Below, piece by piece: positions 1 to 11,735 of a stretch of DNA of 54,814 bases; position 1 is the stretch's first letter; each line of letters starts with the position of its first letter. The translations under genes and the position numbers were made by a program. The stretch spans positions 1-54,814 of the forward strand of contig JAIROX010000002.1 in the NCBI GenBank assembly GCA_031257295.1. Reading direction: 5' to 3'. The stretch is from Candidatus Nomurabacteria bacterium (GTDB taxonomy: Bacteria > Patescibacteriota > Saccharimonadia > Saccharimonadales > Saccharimonadaceae). Under the pieces are notes generated by a model, which saw nothing but the letters and a program-made list of their open reading frames with translations, was not told the DNA's origin and did no database searches.

Positions 1-2135
1 CAGTACTGAGTACCTAATGGTTCGTTGTCTAGGACTGTGGTAGAGTAAGCTGCTTCGCTAATAGAGTTAGTGCCTGGGTTGAGGCCGTTTGGTACACTGG
101 CAGTCTTAGGAGTGCTACAAGCATAGGCGCCAGCGTGGGTTGAATAGTAGGTACAGGGTTCGCTGTTGTTTAGAGCGTCTGAGATGGCGTTGTTGTCATT
201 ACCTGGGCTACGTTTGTAGAAGGCTACTCTCCATTCACCGGGTTTAGTCTTGGTTTCATAGGTGCCTAGTGTGGTACCAGAGTTGTACTTGTCGGTCTTG
301 ACTGTGCCGTTTTTAGCACCGATCACACTACCGGCTTCGATGAGGCCGCTGTGGGTGGCAGTGATGCTGGTGGAGGTGGTGTAGTTGTAAGGTACATAAA
401 CGCATTGTGGGGTGGAATCTTTAGTGGCGTACGAACCGCTGGTGATACGATTGGATTTATCTGATCGGACAAATTGGCAGATAGTCTTGCCTACGTGGGT
501 TTGGTCTATAGCTACGGTGTTGGCTTTGGCGTTGATAACGTAACCGCCCTCGTCAATGGCATCGTTACTACCGCCCGCGCCAGACACTGCGGTTAGAACC
601 GAATCGGCAGGCTTGGCGGTGCTGGTGCCGGCGTTGGTGTACTGATATACCGTGCCAGTTACTGCGACATTAGTGCCATCGTCGTCTTTAACAATGCGGT
701 TGGCGCTTTCCTTTAGAGTATGTTTGAACACTACGCTACAAGTGGGTCTGGTTTTTTTAACAGTGTCGCTTGTTAGGCAGTCAGTGGCGGAGGAGGTAGG
801 GGCTTCAGAAGTTGGGGTCATAACCCAAGGGGAATAGACGTCGACGCAAGCTTGGGTAGAGCTGCCCGTGCCCGAATCGGCGGCACTCTTTGGGCTAAAG
901 CTGATGCCCTGGCAGACCTTAGACTTTCCAACATCAGCTTTTGCCGTCGAAGCGCTCTTATAGGTGTTATTCGATACTGTAAAAGTGCCACCAGCCGCAA
1001 TACTACCAGCTGACACTTTGGTTGCGCTGCCCATTCTGCCTATATTCCAGTACTGCGGTGTGCCAGCTAAGCCACCACTGTTCTCAATTGTGTGCGTAAA
1101 GGTCGCGTTAGTACCATAAGCCACGGCAGCCCCAGCTGTACTGGCGGCTGAAAATACGTAATTAAGTTTCCAGCAAGCATAACGCGTCCTGTCGGCATTC
1201 ATATGAATATCAGCAGTGACAAGATTGCTTTCGCAGCTAGAGCTAGAAGATGTTGACCAGCCCCTAAAACTGTAACCGGATCGTGTGGCAGTGGGAAGGC
1301 TAGTTTTAGCCGCATAATCTCCATTCTTATATTCTCGAAGGAGGTTACTGGCGGCCGTGGCGCCACTAGACTTATGGCCCCATATGGAGTCCCCTGTGCT
1401 AGTACTAACATTGCCGCCATTTGGACCCAAGGTTAGAGTGTGATATGTAGAAGGAATTGAGTGCCAAACGGTCATACCGCCATTACTAGAGGATAGGTAG
1501 ACAGTCATGCCGAAGCTACTGTCTCTGATTAAGGCGACCGCATTGCATTTGCCTTCTCCATTATCACAGTTACCATTGTTGTTATTACTGAATTTACTGA
1601 TGGAACTATTGTAAGTATAGGTTGGGGAAGTACCAGCCGTATACACTCCACTGAGCGTAGTACTAGAGAACTGGATGGTCTGAGCACCGACACTGTTGCC
1701 ATCTATATCCGTCAATAACAAGGCTAAAGGTAAACTGTGGCCTAGATCCACTGTCACCGAACCACCAGTTCCTGATCTGCAATCATTAGCAACTCCAGTG
1801 TTCGACCGAAACTTAACATTAAATGTATACGTTGTTTCGTTAATTGTTACGCATGCACCCCCAGCTGTTTTCGAAACAGTACCATCTGATAAATAGCCAT
1901 TTCCAATACCCCATTTACCACTACTATTTTTATAGAGAAGGTTGGTGCCTTTGTGGTACGTCACAAAGCTTGAGCCATTATTCTCAAGATACGTCCAAAG
2001 GTTGGCATAGCTTTCTAGATAGGTATTGCTAATTGCCGCTGCATCTGCCTGACTAGAACTGAATGCCACGCCGCTTAACCCCACTAACACCAAATATAAT
2101 ACGCTGACATAAAGAAACCTAACTAGTCTTTTCAT
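1..2135 (-). CDS. Secreted repeat/surface protein, N-terminal part (runs off left edge)
   Basis: Open frame of 711 codons without a stop from an ATG at 2135 to the window edge; the C-terminus is missing. Residues 1-30 form a signal peptide (basic MKRLVR, hydrophobic core, then a small-residue stretch ending near QADAAA). The rest is Ser/Thr/Gly/Asn-rich with scattered Cys, typical of an exported beta-rich protein. Around residues 230-320 a segment ending GYSFRGWSTS and then ACWK fits the InlB B-repeat (Listeria-Bacteroides repeat, Flg_new). The start overlaps the stop of the upstream gene by 4 nt (ATGA), so the two are translationally coupled. Likely a cell-surface or secreted protein; a role in contact with the host bacterium is inference only. 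Confidence 0.75.
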   Translation of the reverse strand, partial: MKRLVRFLYVSVLYLVLVGLSGVAFSSSQADAAAISNTYLESYANLWTYLENNGSSFVTYHKGTNLLYKNSSGKWGIGNGYLSDGTVSKTAGGACVTINETTYTFNVKFRSNTGVANDCRSGTGGSVTVDLGHSLPLALLLTDIDGNSVGAQTIQFSSTTLSGVYTAGTSPTYTYNSSISKFSNNNNGNCDNGEGKCNAVALIRDSSFGMTVYLSSSNGGMTVWHSIPSTYHTLTLGPNGGNVSTSTGDSIWGHKSSGATAASNLLREYKNGDYAAKTSLPTATRSGYSFRGWSTSSSSSCESNLVTADIHMNADRTRYACWKLNYVFSAASTAGAAVAYGTNATFTHTIENSGGLAGTPQYWNIGRMGSATKVSAGSIAAGGTFTVSNNTYKSASTAKADVGKSKVCQGISFSPKSAADSGTGSSTQACVDVYSPWVMTPTSEAPTSSATDCLTSDTVKKTRPTCSVVFKHTLKESANRIVKDDDGTNVAVTGTVYQYTNAGTSTAKPADSVLTAVSGAGGSNDAIDEGGYVINAKANTVAIDQTHVGKTICQFVRSDKSNRITSGSYATKDSTPQCVYVPYNYTTSTSITATHSGLIEAGSVIGAKNGTVKTDKYNSGTTLGTYETKTKPGEWRVAFYKRSPGNDNNAISDALNNSEPCTYYSTHAGAYACSTPKTASVPNGLNPGTNSISEAAYSTTVLDNEPLGTQY

Positions 2136-4464: not shown

Positions 4465-4599
4465 CCATAGTAGCCCAGATAATGGAATACTCTGACATTT
4501 GGCTTTAAGCCACCCGGTTATCGTATCTTTTTACGCACTGCCTAAGATAAGCAGCTATTGACCAGGTCCTCTGATTTATTATAATAGGCTATATAAACG

Positions 4600-4630
4600 C
4601 CTCGCCCTCGCGTTAGCTCGGCGAGGTTTT
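4600..4630 (+). terminator. Hairpin plus T4, possible terminator
   Basis: CCTCGCC (4600-4606) pairs with GGCGAGG (4620-4626), 13-nt loop, followed by TTTT. It lies just before the promoter of the nuclease gene, so it could stop plus-strand read-through into that gene. No transcript ending here is identified. Confidence 0.4.
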
Positions 4631-4652
4631 ATGATTTTCCAAGCATAAATGT

Positions 4653-4658
4653 TATAAT
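4653..4658 (+). promoter_or_regulatory. Extended -10 (TGT-TATAAT) 9 nt before the nuclease ATG
   Basis: TATAAT at 4653-4658 preceded by TG at 4650-4651. With a start 7-9 nt downstream the mRNA begins at or within two bases of the ATG at 4668, i.e. leaderless; no Shine-Dalgarno is present. Confidence 0.6.
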
Positions 4659-4667
4659 ATCCCGCAT

Positions 4668-5060
4668 ATGGTAAAACGCAAAAAGATTGACGTGCTTATC
4701 CCGCACGGCTATAAACCACCTAAGAAAGATATTGACGCGGCGTGGGTTCTGGCGCGTTACCATAAAACTGTTGTCGAAGTTTTGCGACCCGCCAACCTCT
4801 ATAAAGTCAGAACTCCCGATTTTTCGTTTAACGATCAAAACTACGAGTTAAAAGTTCTGACAAGCCCGCAAGTTCGCGAGTTACTCTGGCTACTAAATGA
4901 GGCAAAGGGCCAAGCCGAGAATATCATCGTCGATATACGCAAGACCAAGATGGCCAACAAACGCGCCATTGAAATATGCCAAGAGTTTATGAAAAAGCAC
5001 AAAAAATATCGCGTATCTCTAATAATTTCTGCAGAGAAAGTACTTGACATTAAAGTCTGA
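4668..5060 (+). CDS. Stand-alone CdiA-CT-like nuclease domain protein
   Basis: 130 aa, no signal peptide. The central pattern PDFSF-N-D-xx-YELK (residues ~50-60), then a helix and IIVDIRKTKM, then a C-terminal strand-rich RVSLIISAEK, resembles the tRNase-type C-terminal toxin domain of CdiA/contact-dependent inhibition proteins (PD/E..E.K core). Here it is a whole protein, not a tail of a large toxin, and no protein antitoxin is adjacent. Its last codons contain the -35 of the small RNA gene downstream. It may be an intracellular RNase, half of a toxin-antitoxin pair, or an exported effector. Family assignment is by motif recognition and moderate. Confidence 0.6.
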   Translation: MVKRKKIDVLIPHGYKPPKKDIDAAWVLARYHKTVVEVLRPANLYKVRTPDFSFNDQNYELKVLTSPQVRELLWLLNEAKGQAENIIVDIRKTKMANKRAIEICQEFMKKHKKYRVSLIISAEKVLDIKV

Positions 5061-5071
5061 TTTGCTACAAT
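5044..5071 (+). promoter_or_regulatory. Near-consensus sigma70-type promoter for a small RNA
   Basis: TTGACA (5044-5049), 16-nt spacer, extended -10 TGC-TACAAT (5063-5071). Predicted start at 5078-5079. The element lies over the last codons and stop of the nuclease gene. Confidence 0.8.
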
Positions 5072-5077
5072 GGAGTC

Positions 5078-5160
5078 ATAGAGAGGCCACGCGCCCGTAT
5101 CGGGAGCGGAAGGAGCACTCTACATCAAGACGAGATCCGAAAGGGTCTTGTTTTGTCTTT
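5078..5160 (+). ncRNA. Short structured RNA, family not recognised
   Basis: About 80 nt between a strong promoter and an intrinsic terminator, with no ORF. Predicted fold: outer stem UAGAG (5079-5083)/CUCUA (5118-5122), so the RNA begins almost exactly with its basal stem; inside it CGC/GCG and a CCCG-UAU-CGGG hairpin; a single-stranded GGAAGGAG follows, which resembles a Shine-Dalgarno. The 3' hairpin at 5126-5150 with GATCC-GAAA-GGGTC and TTTTGTCTTT ends it. I tested SRP RNA: the GGAA is not flanked by a pairing stem, so it does not fit. Could be a regulatory RNA or an RNA antitoxin for the preceding nuclease (speculation). Confidence 0.7.
5126..5160 (+). terminator. Intrinsic terminator of the 5078-5160 RNA
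   Basis: GATCC-GAAA-GGGTC hairpin (or CAAGAC/GTCTTG alternative) followed by TTTTGTCTTT. The 86 nt after it before the nusA stop show nothing. Confidence 0.8.
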
Positions 5161-9264: not shown

Positions 9265-11037
9265 ATGAAGAAACGCTCTGAAATCCCGCAAAACTTAAAA
9301 TGGGACATCGAATCGATATACGCCAGCGACACGCTGTGGCAGAAAGACTGCAACAAAGCCGCCGACTTAGCCAGGCAGTTCACTAAGTTTGCCGGCAAGT
9401 TGGTAGATACCAAAACCTTACTATCCGCTCTGCAACTTCGCGATAGCATCTGGCGCATTTGGCAAAAAACCGCCAGCTACGCATACATGCGCCGCGACGA
9501 AGACAATACCAGCGCCAAGTACCAAGCAATGGTAGCCAAGGTGCAGGGGCTGGGCACGGATATTTCCACCAGAATGGCCTTTTTCCGCCCTGAGCTTATG
9601 GAGCTACTTGGCAACAACCTAGAATCACTGTTAAAAGCTGAGCCCGGCCTAGAGCTTTATCGCCATGAGCTTGAGGTGGCTTTACGCAAAAAGCCGCACA
9701 TCCTGTCTGCCGCTGAAGAAGCTGTCGTGGCTGCGCTAGACGACCTAACCGACGGTCCGAGCGAAATATTTGGTATGATAAATGACGCCGACATGGATTT
9801 CGGCAAGGTTAAAGATGAAGACGGCCGAGAGGTTCAGCTAACTCATGGCAATTATGGCCGTTTCTTAGAAAACCACGACCGCGCAGTTCGCCGCGGCGCT
9901 TATGAGCGAGTCTATGAAACTTACCAGCACCAAGCAAACACACTGGCCACTACATACTTTTACGACGTTAAGGGAGATGTTGCCACTAGCAAGCTGCGCC
10001 ACTATCCGTCGGCGTTAGAGCGAGCCTTGAGCGGTGACAACGTGCCGATTAGTGTTTACACAAACCTGGTCGACGCCGTGCATGCCAGTCTGCCAACCCT
10101 GCAAAGATACCTAGAGCTCAAGCGACGAGCCCTAGGGCCTAGTGAGCTTGCGATGTATGACGTATATATGCCACTCGCTAACAGCGAGACACGCAGCTAC
10201 ACTTACGATGAGGCTAAGGAGATCGTTCTTGACGCGTTAGCGCCACTGGGCGAAGAGTATGTTCGCAGTGCTAGGGCTGGGCTTGAATCCGGTTGGGTGG
10301 ATGTGCTAGAAAACGCCGGTAAAACTAGCGGCGCCTACTCTGGCGGATGTTACGACAGCAAACCTTTTATACTGCTCAATTTCAGCGGCCGCCTAAACGA
10401 TGTTTTCACCTTGGCGCATGAGCTAGGCCATTCAATGCACGCATTTTATACGCGCCGCAAGCAGCCGTTTGCCTATGGCGGACATTCAATTTTTACCGCT
10501 GAAGTGGCTTCAACTGTCAATGAGCTACTACTTATGGACCACTTAACCAAGCAAGCTAAGCCAGAGCAAAAGGCCTACTTGCTGGCTCAGCACATTGACG
10601 ACTTTCGCACAACGCTAATTCGCCAAACTATGTTTGCCGAATTCGAGAAACTAACTCACGAGCGAGTCTGGCAAGGCGAAGCCCTAACGGCCGAGTGGCT
10701 CTGCACTGAATATGGACGGCTAAATGATCGTTACTACGGGCCGGTCGTCAAGCCGGATAACTTCATCAAATACGAATGGTCGCGCATTCCACATTTTTAT
10801 CGAGCTTTTTACGTTTATAAATACGCTACTGGCTATTCAGCGGCTACAGCTATTTCTGACTTGGTGTTGCATCACAGTGGTGCTGGTGGTTATATAGAAT
10901 TTTTGAAGTCGGGTGAGTCCGATGACCCGATTGAGCTACTAAAGATTGCTGGTGTCGACATGAGCCAACCCGAACCCGTCACGGATGCTTTGAGGGTCTT
11001 TGCTGGCTTGGTTGATCAGCTAGAAGAACTCCTGTGA
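9265..11037 (+). CDS. pepF: Oligoendopeptidase F (M3B zinc peptidase)
   Basis: 590 aa, the usual family length of ~600. N-terminus MKKRSEIPQNLKWDIESIYAS is the typical PepF start. Zinc motif HELGH at residues 385-389 (catalytic Glu386); the third ligand Glu lies ~28 residues later in FTAEVASTVNE. Cytoplasmic enzyme that cleaves peptides of about 7-17 residues, here likely feeding on imported peptides. The start follows from a -10 box 6 nt upstream. The stop overlaps the next gene's GTG by 4 nt (GTGA). Confidence 0.95.
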   Translation: MKKRSEIPQNLKWDIESIYASDTLWQKDCNKAADLARQFTKFAGKLVDTKTLLSALQLRDSIWRIWQKTASYAYMRRDEDNTSAKYQAMVAKVQGLGTDISTRMAFFRPELMELLGNNLESLLKAEPGLELYRHELEVALRKKPHILSAAEEAVVAALDDLTDGPSEIFGMINDADMDFGKVKDEDGREVQLTHGNYGRFLENHDRAVRRGAYERVYETYQHQANTLATTYFYDVKGDVATSKLRHYPSALERALSGDNVPISVYTNLVDAVHASLPTLQRYLELKRRALGPSELAMYDVYMPLANSETRSYTYDEAKEIVLDALAPLGEEYVRSARAGLESGWVDVLENAGKTSGAYSGGCYDSKPFILLNFSGRLNDVFTLAHELGHSMHAFYTRRKQPFAYGGHSIFTAEVASTVNELLLMDHLTKQAKPEQKAYLLAQHIDDFRTTLIRQTMFAEFEKLTHERVWQGEALTAEWLCTEYGRLNDRYYGPVVKPDNFIKYEWSRIPHFYRAFYVYKYATGYSAATAISDLVLHHSGAGGYIEFLKSGESDDPIELLKIAGVDMSQPEPVTDALRVFAGLVDQLEELL

Positions 11038-11735
11038 GCAAGGTGAAACGCCGTCGCCTAATCGCTGCTTGCGTGGTTCTTGTCGCCGCTGGGTTGTTTA
11101 TATTCCTCCACCCTGCCAACTACCAGCCCGAACCCGAGCCAGCTGCACCAGTAACCACTGCAACAGACGAAAATCTGGCCATCAATGCCCTAAAAAAACT
11201 GCTGGTCAAGCCAAATTCGGCCAAAGAAAAGTATGTTCGTAAAAACTTCGGCAATGGCTGGGGCCAAATTAACGGCTGCGATACGCGCAATGTGATTCTG
11301 CAACGCGATATGACAGATACAAAATTAAACAACTGCCTAGTAATGAGTGGCGTGCTCAACGATCCATACACTGGTAAAGTGATTAGTTTCGTGCGCGGTG
11401 CCGGCACCAGCAGTGCCGTGCAGATTGACCACGTAGTAGCGCTTAGCAACGCCTGGCAAACTGGCGCCTCCGAGTGGGACACAGCAAAACGCGTCGCTCT
11501 AGCCAACGACCCGTTAGAATTATTGGCCGTTGATGGGCCGGCCAATCAACAAAAGAGTGATAAAGACGCCAGCGCTTGGCTACCCAGCAACAAGGGCTTC
11601 ATTTGCCATTACGTAGCAAGGCAAATTACAGTTAAAGCCAAATACCACTTATGGGTAACTCAGCCTGAGCACGATACTATGAGCAGCACGCTTGCTGGTT
11701 GTCCTGGTCAAAAAACTATCAGCTTTGAAAAATGA
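11034..11735 (+). CDS. Membrane-anchored or secreted HNH nuclease (DUF1524/GmrSD-C type)
   Basis: 233 aa, GTG start overlapping the pepF stop. Residues 8-26 form a hydrophobic N-terminal segment (signal peptide or anchor) after KVKRRR, followed by a Pro/Glu linker (YQPEPEPAAP). The catalytic part has VQIDHVVALSNAWQTGA (~130-146), then ANDPLELLAVDGPANQQKSD and DASAWLP, which is the DUF1524 HNH pattern (His-Asn ligand set). Extracytoplasmic DNA/RNA degradation for nucleotide scavenging, or processing of incoming DNA for T4P-driven uptake, are plausible. Co-transcribed with a peptidase. Confidence 0.85.
   Translation: MSKVKRRRLIAACVVLVAAGLFIFLHPANYQPEPEPAAPVTTATDENLAINALKKLLVKPNSAKEKYVRKNFGNGWGQINGCDTRNVILQRDMTDTKLNNCLVMSGVLNDPYTGKVISFVRGAGTSSAVQIDHVVALSNAWQTGASEWDTAKRVALANDPLELLAVDGPANQQKSDKDASAWLPSNKGFICHYVARQITVKAKYHLWVTQPEHDTMSSTLAGCPGQKTISFEK

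Follow-up and report, generated by a model that had tools for sequence, protein, structure and literature searches.

A standalone CdiA_C-like nuclease and the small structured RNA behind it: a candidate toxin/RNA-antitoxin cassette of Saccharibacteria

The window analysed here is the whole stretch of 54,814 nucleotides that opens contig JAIROX010000002.1 of a Saccharimonadaceae genome of ~0.75 Mb (assembly GCA_031257295.1). Near its start we find a gene for a putative toxin and, following it on the same strand, a small RNA whose promoter straddles the end of the coding sequence:

4653-4658, + strand: TATAAT, probable -10 box of the nuclease gene, ~9 nt before the ATG
4668-5060, + strand: CdiA_C-like PD-(D/E)XK nuclease of 130 aa, putative toxin (Pfam PF18451, E 1e-8)
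5044-5049, + strand: -35 box of the small RNA, TTGACA, within the C-terminal L-D-I codons of the nuclease; position and codon phase are kept in homologues
5066-5071, + strand: -10 box of the small RNA, TACAAT, extended (TGC before it)
~5078-5158 (to 5160 with the tail), + strand: small RNA, class 1; ends approximate, transcription start predicted
5079-5122, + strand: conserved hairpin (basal stem, asymmetric internal loop GGCCR / GRAAGGAGYR, and apical hairpin), from folding and covariation
5126-5160, + strand: intrinsic terminator (13-bp stem, GAAA-type loop and T-rich tail), kept in close homologues

The neighbours of the pair are nusA, which is the next gene downstream and lies on the opposite strand, and a gene for a secreted Ig/Fn3 protein. 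None of the nuclease's neighbours in the window resembles a protein antitoxin, which fits an earlier sequence-only reading of this DNA that had described the nuclease as lacking one. The same nusA site is without the nuclease/RNA module in one genome of the same genus. Just upstream of the nuclease, positions 4558-4636 (+ strand) hold a second promoter (TTGACC-16-TATAAT, 11/12) and a 40-nt hairpin with a U-tail. This unit may represent an orphan RNA built on the same plan, or else a terminator serving as insulation. Elsewhere in the window, an ORF at 11034-11735 (+ strand) perhaps encodes a secreted nuclease, judging from its sequence: the N-terminus is signal-like and there is an HNH-like motif (DHVVALSNAW...N).

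The nuclease is a standalone ORF, and its Pfam assignment to CdiA_C bears out the initial description of it as CdiA-CT-like. The catalytic residues D51, E60, and K62 are invariant in 82 homologues, and the median dN/dS of close pairs is 0.057. An AlphaFold model (pLDDT 95.6) matches the CdiA-CT of B. pseudomallei 1026b (4G6V_A) with Z 12.4 over 117 residues (Foldseek E 3e-5), and the sequence profile matches the same structure (E 1e-5); 4G6V is the sole significant PDB match in both the profile and the Foldseek search, with other PDB folds below Z 8, while NCBIfam and PADLOC provide no convincing name. The toxin of strain 1026b (4G6V) cleaves the acceptor stem of tRNA-Ala, and its relative from E479 the T-loop of a tRNA-Arg (PMC9086364). 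On the strength of this homology to the B. pseudomallei toxin, the nuclease is probably a tRNase. The position of its TATAAT, ~9 nt before the ATG, indicates that its mRNA is probably leaderless, and the nuclease genes mostly look leaderless across the family: a -10-like box ends at most 14 nt from the start in 72 of 99 homologues, and an SD-like AGGA is present in 3.

The promoter of the small RNA, TTGACA-16-TACAAT with a spacer ending in TGC, has 11 of 12 sigma-70 matches, and so is as near to consensus as first reported. It had been placed within the last codons of the nuclease, which is correct for the -35 box and not for the -10 box, which lies just past the stop. The RNA at 5078-5160 has a folding energy of -34.5 kcal/mol, against -21.5 for shuffles (z -4.15; 0/200 shuffles equally stable), and the basal stem and clear terminator seen by the sequence-only reading are both recovered, as stems 5079-5083/5118-5122 and 5126-5138/5143-5155, respectively. 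The segment GGAAGGAG, at ~5108-5115, does lie in the internal loop, but it is not fully free, as had been thought, since in all homologues an invariant CC is base-paired to two of these Gs. The RNA had also been called unrecognised, and Rfam indeed yields no match, whether at the gathering score or with E relaxed to 10.

Strong homologues of the small RNA were identified in four other genomes by a DNA search of 100 relatives, some of them in multiple copies, and all lie directly behind a nuclease of the same kind or a decayed remnant of one; homologues in other genera retain the promoter, the hairpin, and the terminator. Covariation, which had been proposed as a check, is strong. In an alignment of 8 sequences, 94.9% of cells are paired and 11 of 27 pairs have changed on both sides (at most 5 in slid controls), and among 17 divergent class-1 RNAs 94.9% are paired, 10 of 13 pairs have changed on both sides, and 0/500 shuffles reach the score. 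Comparison across genomes thus establishes the small RNA, its fold, and its promoter, and reveals the asymmetric internal loop (GRCCR opposite RAAGGAGYR) as the most conserved part of class-1 RNAs.

The RNAs fall into classes, defined from the same loci that were later used for class counts, which differ in sequence and have a common plan of outer stem, internal loop, inner hairpin, and T-run; 93 loci were assigned to classes by profiles and the remainder, including c7-c9 and some variants, by eye. Covariation is also found in class 5, class 3, and class 2, as well as in the phage RNAs described below, and neither the other classes nor the phage RNAs have a credible Rfam match at gathering score or relaxed E-values. 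Some CM matches of ~31-37 bits without a nuclease (L164, L166, and L167) look false, being a tRNA or other sequence followed by a terminator. Sequence mimicry of tRNA was considered and rejected: in comparisons with 34 host-genome tRNAs, the mean z ranges from -0.28 to 0.29 for classes 1, 2, 3, and 5, and is 0.8 for class 6, with three RNAs only.

The RNA is a transcription unit of its own. Where it shares the strand of the nuclease, a promoter scoring at least 9/12 lies across the end of the nuclease gene at 91 of 95 loci, with a mean score of 10.76 compared to 7.56 at 245 control ORF ends; the -35 box is mostly TTGACA or TTGAAA in a fixed codon phase, and the spacing is 17 in 74 cases. At seven loci the RNA is convergent on the opposite strand, where a near-consensus promoter is present in all six that could be scored, and the same-strand promoter is weaker (8.07). 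With a promoter of its own, which one clade has on the opposite strand, the RNA cannot be a read-through product or the terminator of the nuclease gene. We also observe that in the window (5044-5057) and in homologues the C-terminal [LVI]-D-I codons of the nuclease spell the TTGACA of the RNA promoter, and that at loci with an opposite-strand RNA the nuclease mostly ends in other residues (VEVIK-like). With the -35 box inside the last codons of the toxin, part of the protein C-terminus may be conserved for the sake of the RNA.

A profile search with six nucleases returned matches in 170 of 394 sampled genomes of the Saccharibacteria family, with up to ten per genome. With 80 further stretches added, we examined linkage at 107 distinct nuclease ORF matches, 104 of them near-full-length. 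A structured RNA with a -10-like box comes immediately after the stop codon in 102 of the 104 near-full-length nucleases, and the two that lack one (L134 and L148) run into contig ends within ~150 nt. The DNA around the pairs is otherwise unlike between loci, with only 2/378 and 2/351 flank pairs alike. On the nuclease tree, RNA class changes 16 times, compared to 64 times with shuffled labels, and 0/200 shuffles are as low. This matching of class to clade is weaker evidence than the cassette exchange and the orphan RNAs described next, since close linkage alone gives co-inheritance.

Exchange is seen at one site in four sister species, where the flanks are alike and the neighbouring gene was read by eye as a cysteine desulfurase. 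In two of the species it is occupied by a nuclease and an RNA of matching class (class 5 in one, class 2 in the other), in a third by a divergent CdiA_C nuclease accompanied by a hairpin RNA of its own, and in the fourth by a PemK/MazF-like toxin. Comparison of these sites shows nuclease and RNA swapped as one unit between sister species, and the alternative occupant is a toxin of the toxin-antitoxin type. The PemK/MazF-like toxin at L291 (genome G219, ~860-1390, reverse strand; Pfam E 2e-6) also has a TATAAT in convergent orientation and hairpins behind it, so RNA partners may exist for other toxins as well.

The pairing is not equally constant from both sides. The expectation that the RNA travels with the nuclease holds for the nucleases, where the only loci without an RNA are the 2/104 at contig ends, but about half of the loci found through the RNA have no intact nuclease. 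In counts drawn from the best-scoring RNA matches and not from a random sample, 7 of 14 strong class-1 matches are without an intact nuclease (four beside remnants and three with none detected), as are 14 of 30 class-5 loci, 12 of which have no detectable nuclease and still score 54-71 bits. The sequence-only reading had counted the presence of the RNA in many relatives without the nuclease against its proposal, and this objection applies in part; yet a number of these RNAs have nuclease remnants or further RNAs of the family next to them, as would be expected of orphan antitoxins. Some orphan RNAs have lost the promoter (e.g., L160 and L283), a point against the antitoxin reading. Extra RNAs of another class stand in tandem at L129, L149, and L169, and L268 has a pair of RNAs and no nuclease that we could find. 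Taken more broadly, L129, L133, L145, L146, L149, L150, L165, L169, and L268 hold RNAs in tandem, whether of one class or of several, next to a single nuclease or without any, in groups resembling antitoxin arrays. The constant pairing, the class-to-clade matching, and the asymmetry of loss all emerge from comparison between loci, and the retention of the RNA where the nuclease is lost is, by analogy, the pattern of antitoxin versus toxin genes in decaying modules.

Beyond this family, the nuclease extends to several families of the same order and, more distantly within the phylum, to one further genus; there a promoter-hairpin unit, read by eye, adjoins the nuclease and is convergent in the distant ones. 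Searches of viral contigs for three nucleases, and of plasmids, found none. In a phage collection, the CdiA_C domain occurs in Streptococcus phages, as the C-terminal part of MuF-type capsid proteins. Directly behind the toxin come a TATAAT in convergent orientation and a structured RNA, whose core is almost constant and whose outer stem covaries (loci L320-L332 in Streptococcus phages and satellites, e.g., L320:1544-1627, reverse strand). The phage RNA is present in 38 records, 14 of which are satellite phages, and none of the 14 has an intact toxin; the satellite Javan620 keeps just the last 28 toxin codons before the RNA. A possible role of the RNA in satellite phages is immunity against the toxin of the helper phage.

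Linkage, the matching of classes to clades, orphan RNAs, cassette exchange, and the phage layout are best accommodated by the RNA antitoxin that the sequence-only reading had listed among possible roles, and we consider it likely that the RNA is an antitoxin, or immunity RNA, acting on the nuclease protein. Nuclease and RNA would then form a two-gene toxin/RNA-antitoxin cassette, in which the nuclease, a CdiA-CT-type PD-(D/E)XK protein and probable tRNase, would be made at a low level from a leaderless mRNA, and the near-consensus promoter that the RNA has at the end of the nuclease gene would supply it in excess. The RNA, a hairpin whose asymmetric internal loop is conserved, would most likely bind its cognate nuclease and block its activity. 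We infer, in this model, the toxicity of the nuclease in the cell, its tRNA target, and the relative expression levels, as well as the neutralisation itself and its working through binding of the protein instead of control of expression. We also lean towards a wider proposal, in which RNA immunity is a general partner of the CdiA_C domain, the pairs circulate as swappable cassettes in Patescibacteria and Streptococcus phages, and genomes and satellites collect orphan RNAs against toxins that they do not carry.

The strongest rival to an antitoxin is a positive cofactor or scaffold, in which the RNA would not inhibit the nuclease but form part of an RNP enzyme or act as a TnpB/IscB-like guide. 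Constant pairing and class matching fit any dedicated RNP, but it would be odd for a cofactor to outlast the intact nuclease at about half of the RNA-found loci and in satellite phages. In systems of the TnpB/IscB type a variable guide lies at the RNA end, whereas no guide is evident here, since the RNAs vary mainly in covarying stems and end in terminators, and we regard a cofactor as unlikely. It is quite improbable that the RNA has a housekeeping or regulatory role of its own, or is a mere terminator, and lies next to the nuclease by chance or shared mobility: orphan copies do exist, but no class matches Rfam, strong matches are confined to few relatives, and the pairing persists across unrelated flanks, in both orientations, and through cassette exchange.

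A further alternative is an RNA that base-pairs with the nuclease mRNA and blocks translation, as in type I systems. A small RNA adjoining a toxin gene whose mRNA is mostly leaderless would suit this arrangement, but the RNA is not antisense to the nuclease gene in most loci, we find no antisense complementarity to the toxin mRNA, and duplex energies are the same for cognate and non-cognate combinations (mean z -0.01 for the start region and -0.05 for the whole ORF). Type I toxins are small hydrophobic peptides, whereas the toxin here is a folded nuclease, and we judge this alternative very improbable. The other role raised by the sequence-only reading, that of an anti-Shine-Dalgarno decoy in which the AAGGAG segment would tie up ribosomes to the benefit of leaderless mRNAs, draws on the conservation of a GGAAGGAG-like sequence in class 1 and on the leaderless look of most nuclease genes, but it is scarcely credible and is rejected as a general role because AAGGAG/GGAGG is confined to class 1 (17/17 RNAs, compared to 0/64 RNAs of classes 2, 3, and 5 at the same position, in classes defined as above), and two Gs of the segment are paired with the invariant CC.

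Returning to the RNA antitoxin, the pair is like type III systems (ToxIN, CptIN, and TenpIN) in that a nuclease toxin adjoins a small structured RNA, its plausible neutraliser, and a protein antitoxin is absent. Type III systems are defined by a repeat RNA antitoxin upstream of the toxin, under one promoter and with a terminator between the two (PMC5086642). Here the RNA is downstream, has its own promoter, is a single repeat-less unit in nearly all loci, and is sometimes convergent; the toxin has the CdiA-CT PD-(D/E)XK fold (Pfam CdiA_C, 4G6V) and is not of the ToxN/CptN/TenpN family. The nuclease/RNA pair is type III-like in logic, but its genes, fold, and order place it outside type III. 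Type III RNAs fold as an H-type pseudoknot; here covariation, analysed for nested pairs, supports nested hairpins.

With the CdiA-CT/CdiI systems of B. pseudomallei (1026b and E479; PMC9086364) the pair shares a homologous toxin domain and a catalytic core of the same acidic/lysine kind, but here the toxin is a standalone 130-aa protein without a large CdiA or CdiB, and the gene downstream is an RNA in place of that for the CdiI protein. Some MuF polymorphic toxins of temperate phages share the C-terminal toxin domain (PMC5576092). In the passages of that study consulted here, small ORFs downstream of the toxins are proposed as immunity genes and an RNA behind the toxin is not described, whereas in the Streptococcus phages that we inspected a convergent structured RNA is what comes next after the stop. 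The open-access literature, which excludes preprints and most subscription papers, yielded no earlier report of an RNA partner of CdiA-type or MuF toxins, or of an RNA antitoxin in Saccharibacteria.

To our knowledge, RNA antitoxins that act on the toxin protein have so far been described mainly for ToxN-type families, and the toxins and small RNAs of the tiny parasitic bacteria that host this pair have been little studied. Here diverse small RNAs partner a different nuclease fold, one shared with a secreted CDI tRNase. The finding offers a candidate answer to why a non-coding gap follows the MuF-CdiA_C toxins of phages, and in satellite phages it points to an RNA directed at the toxin of the helper phage. 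The nuclease/RNA classes are also a testable source of orthogonal toxin/RNA pairs. If the antidote role is true, this would be an undescribed kind of toxin with an RNA, not a protein, as its antidote, and, on the wider proposal above, a new class of RNA-based toxin immunity, unrelated to type III by toxin fold, gene order, and promoter layout.
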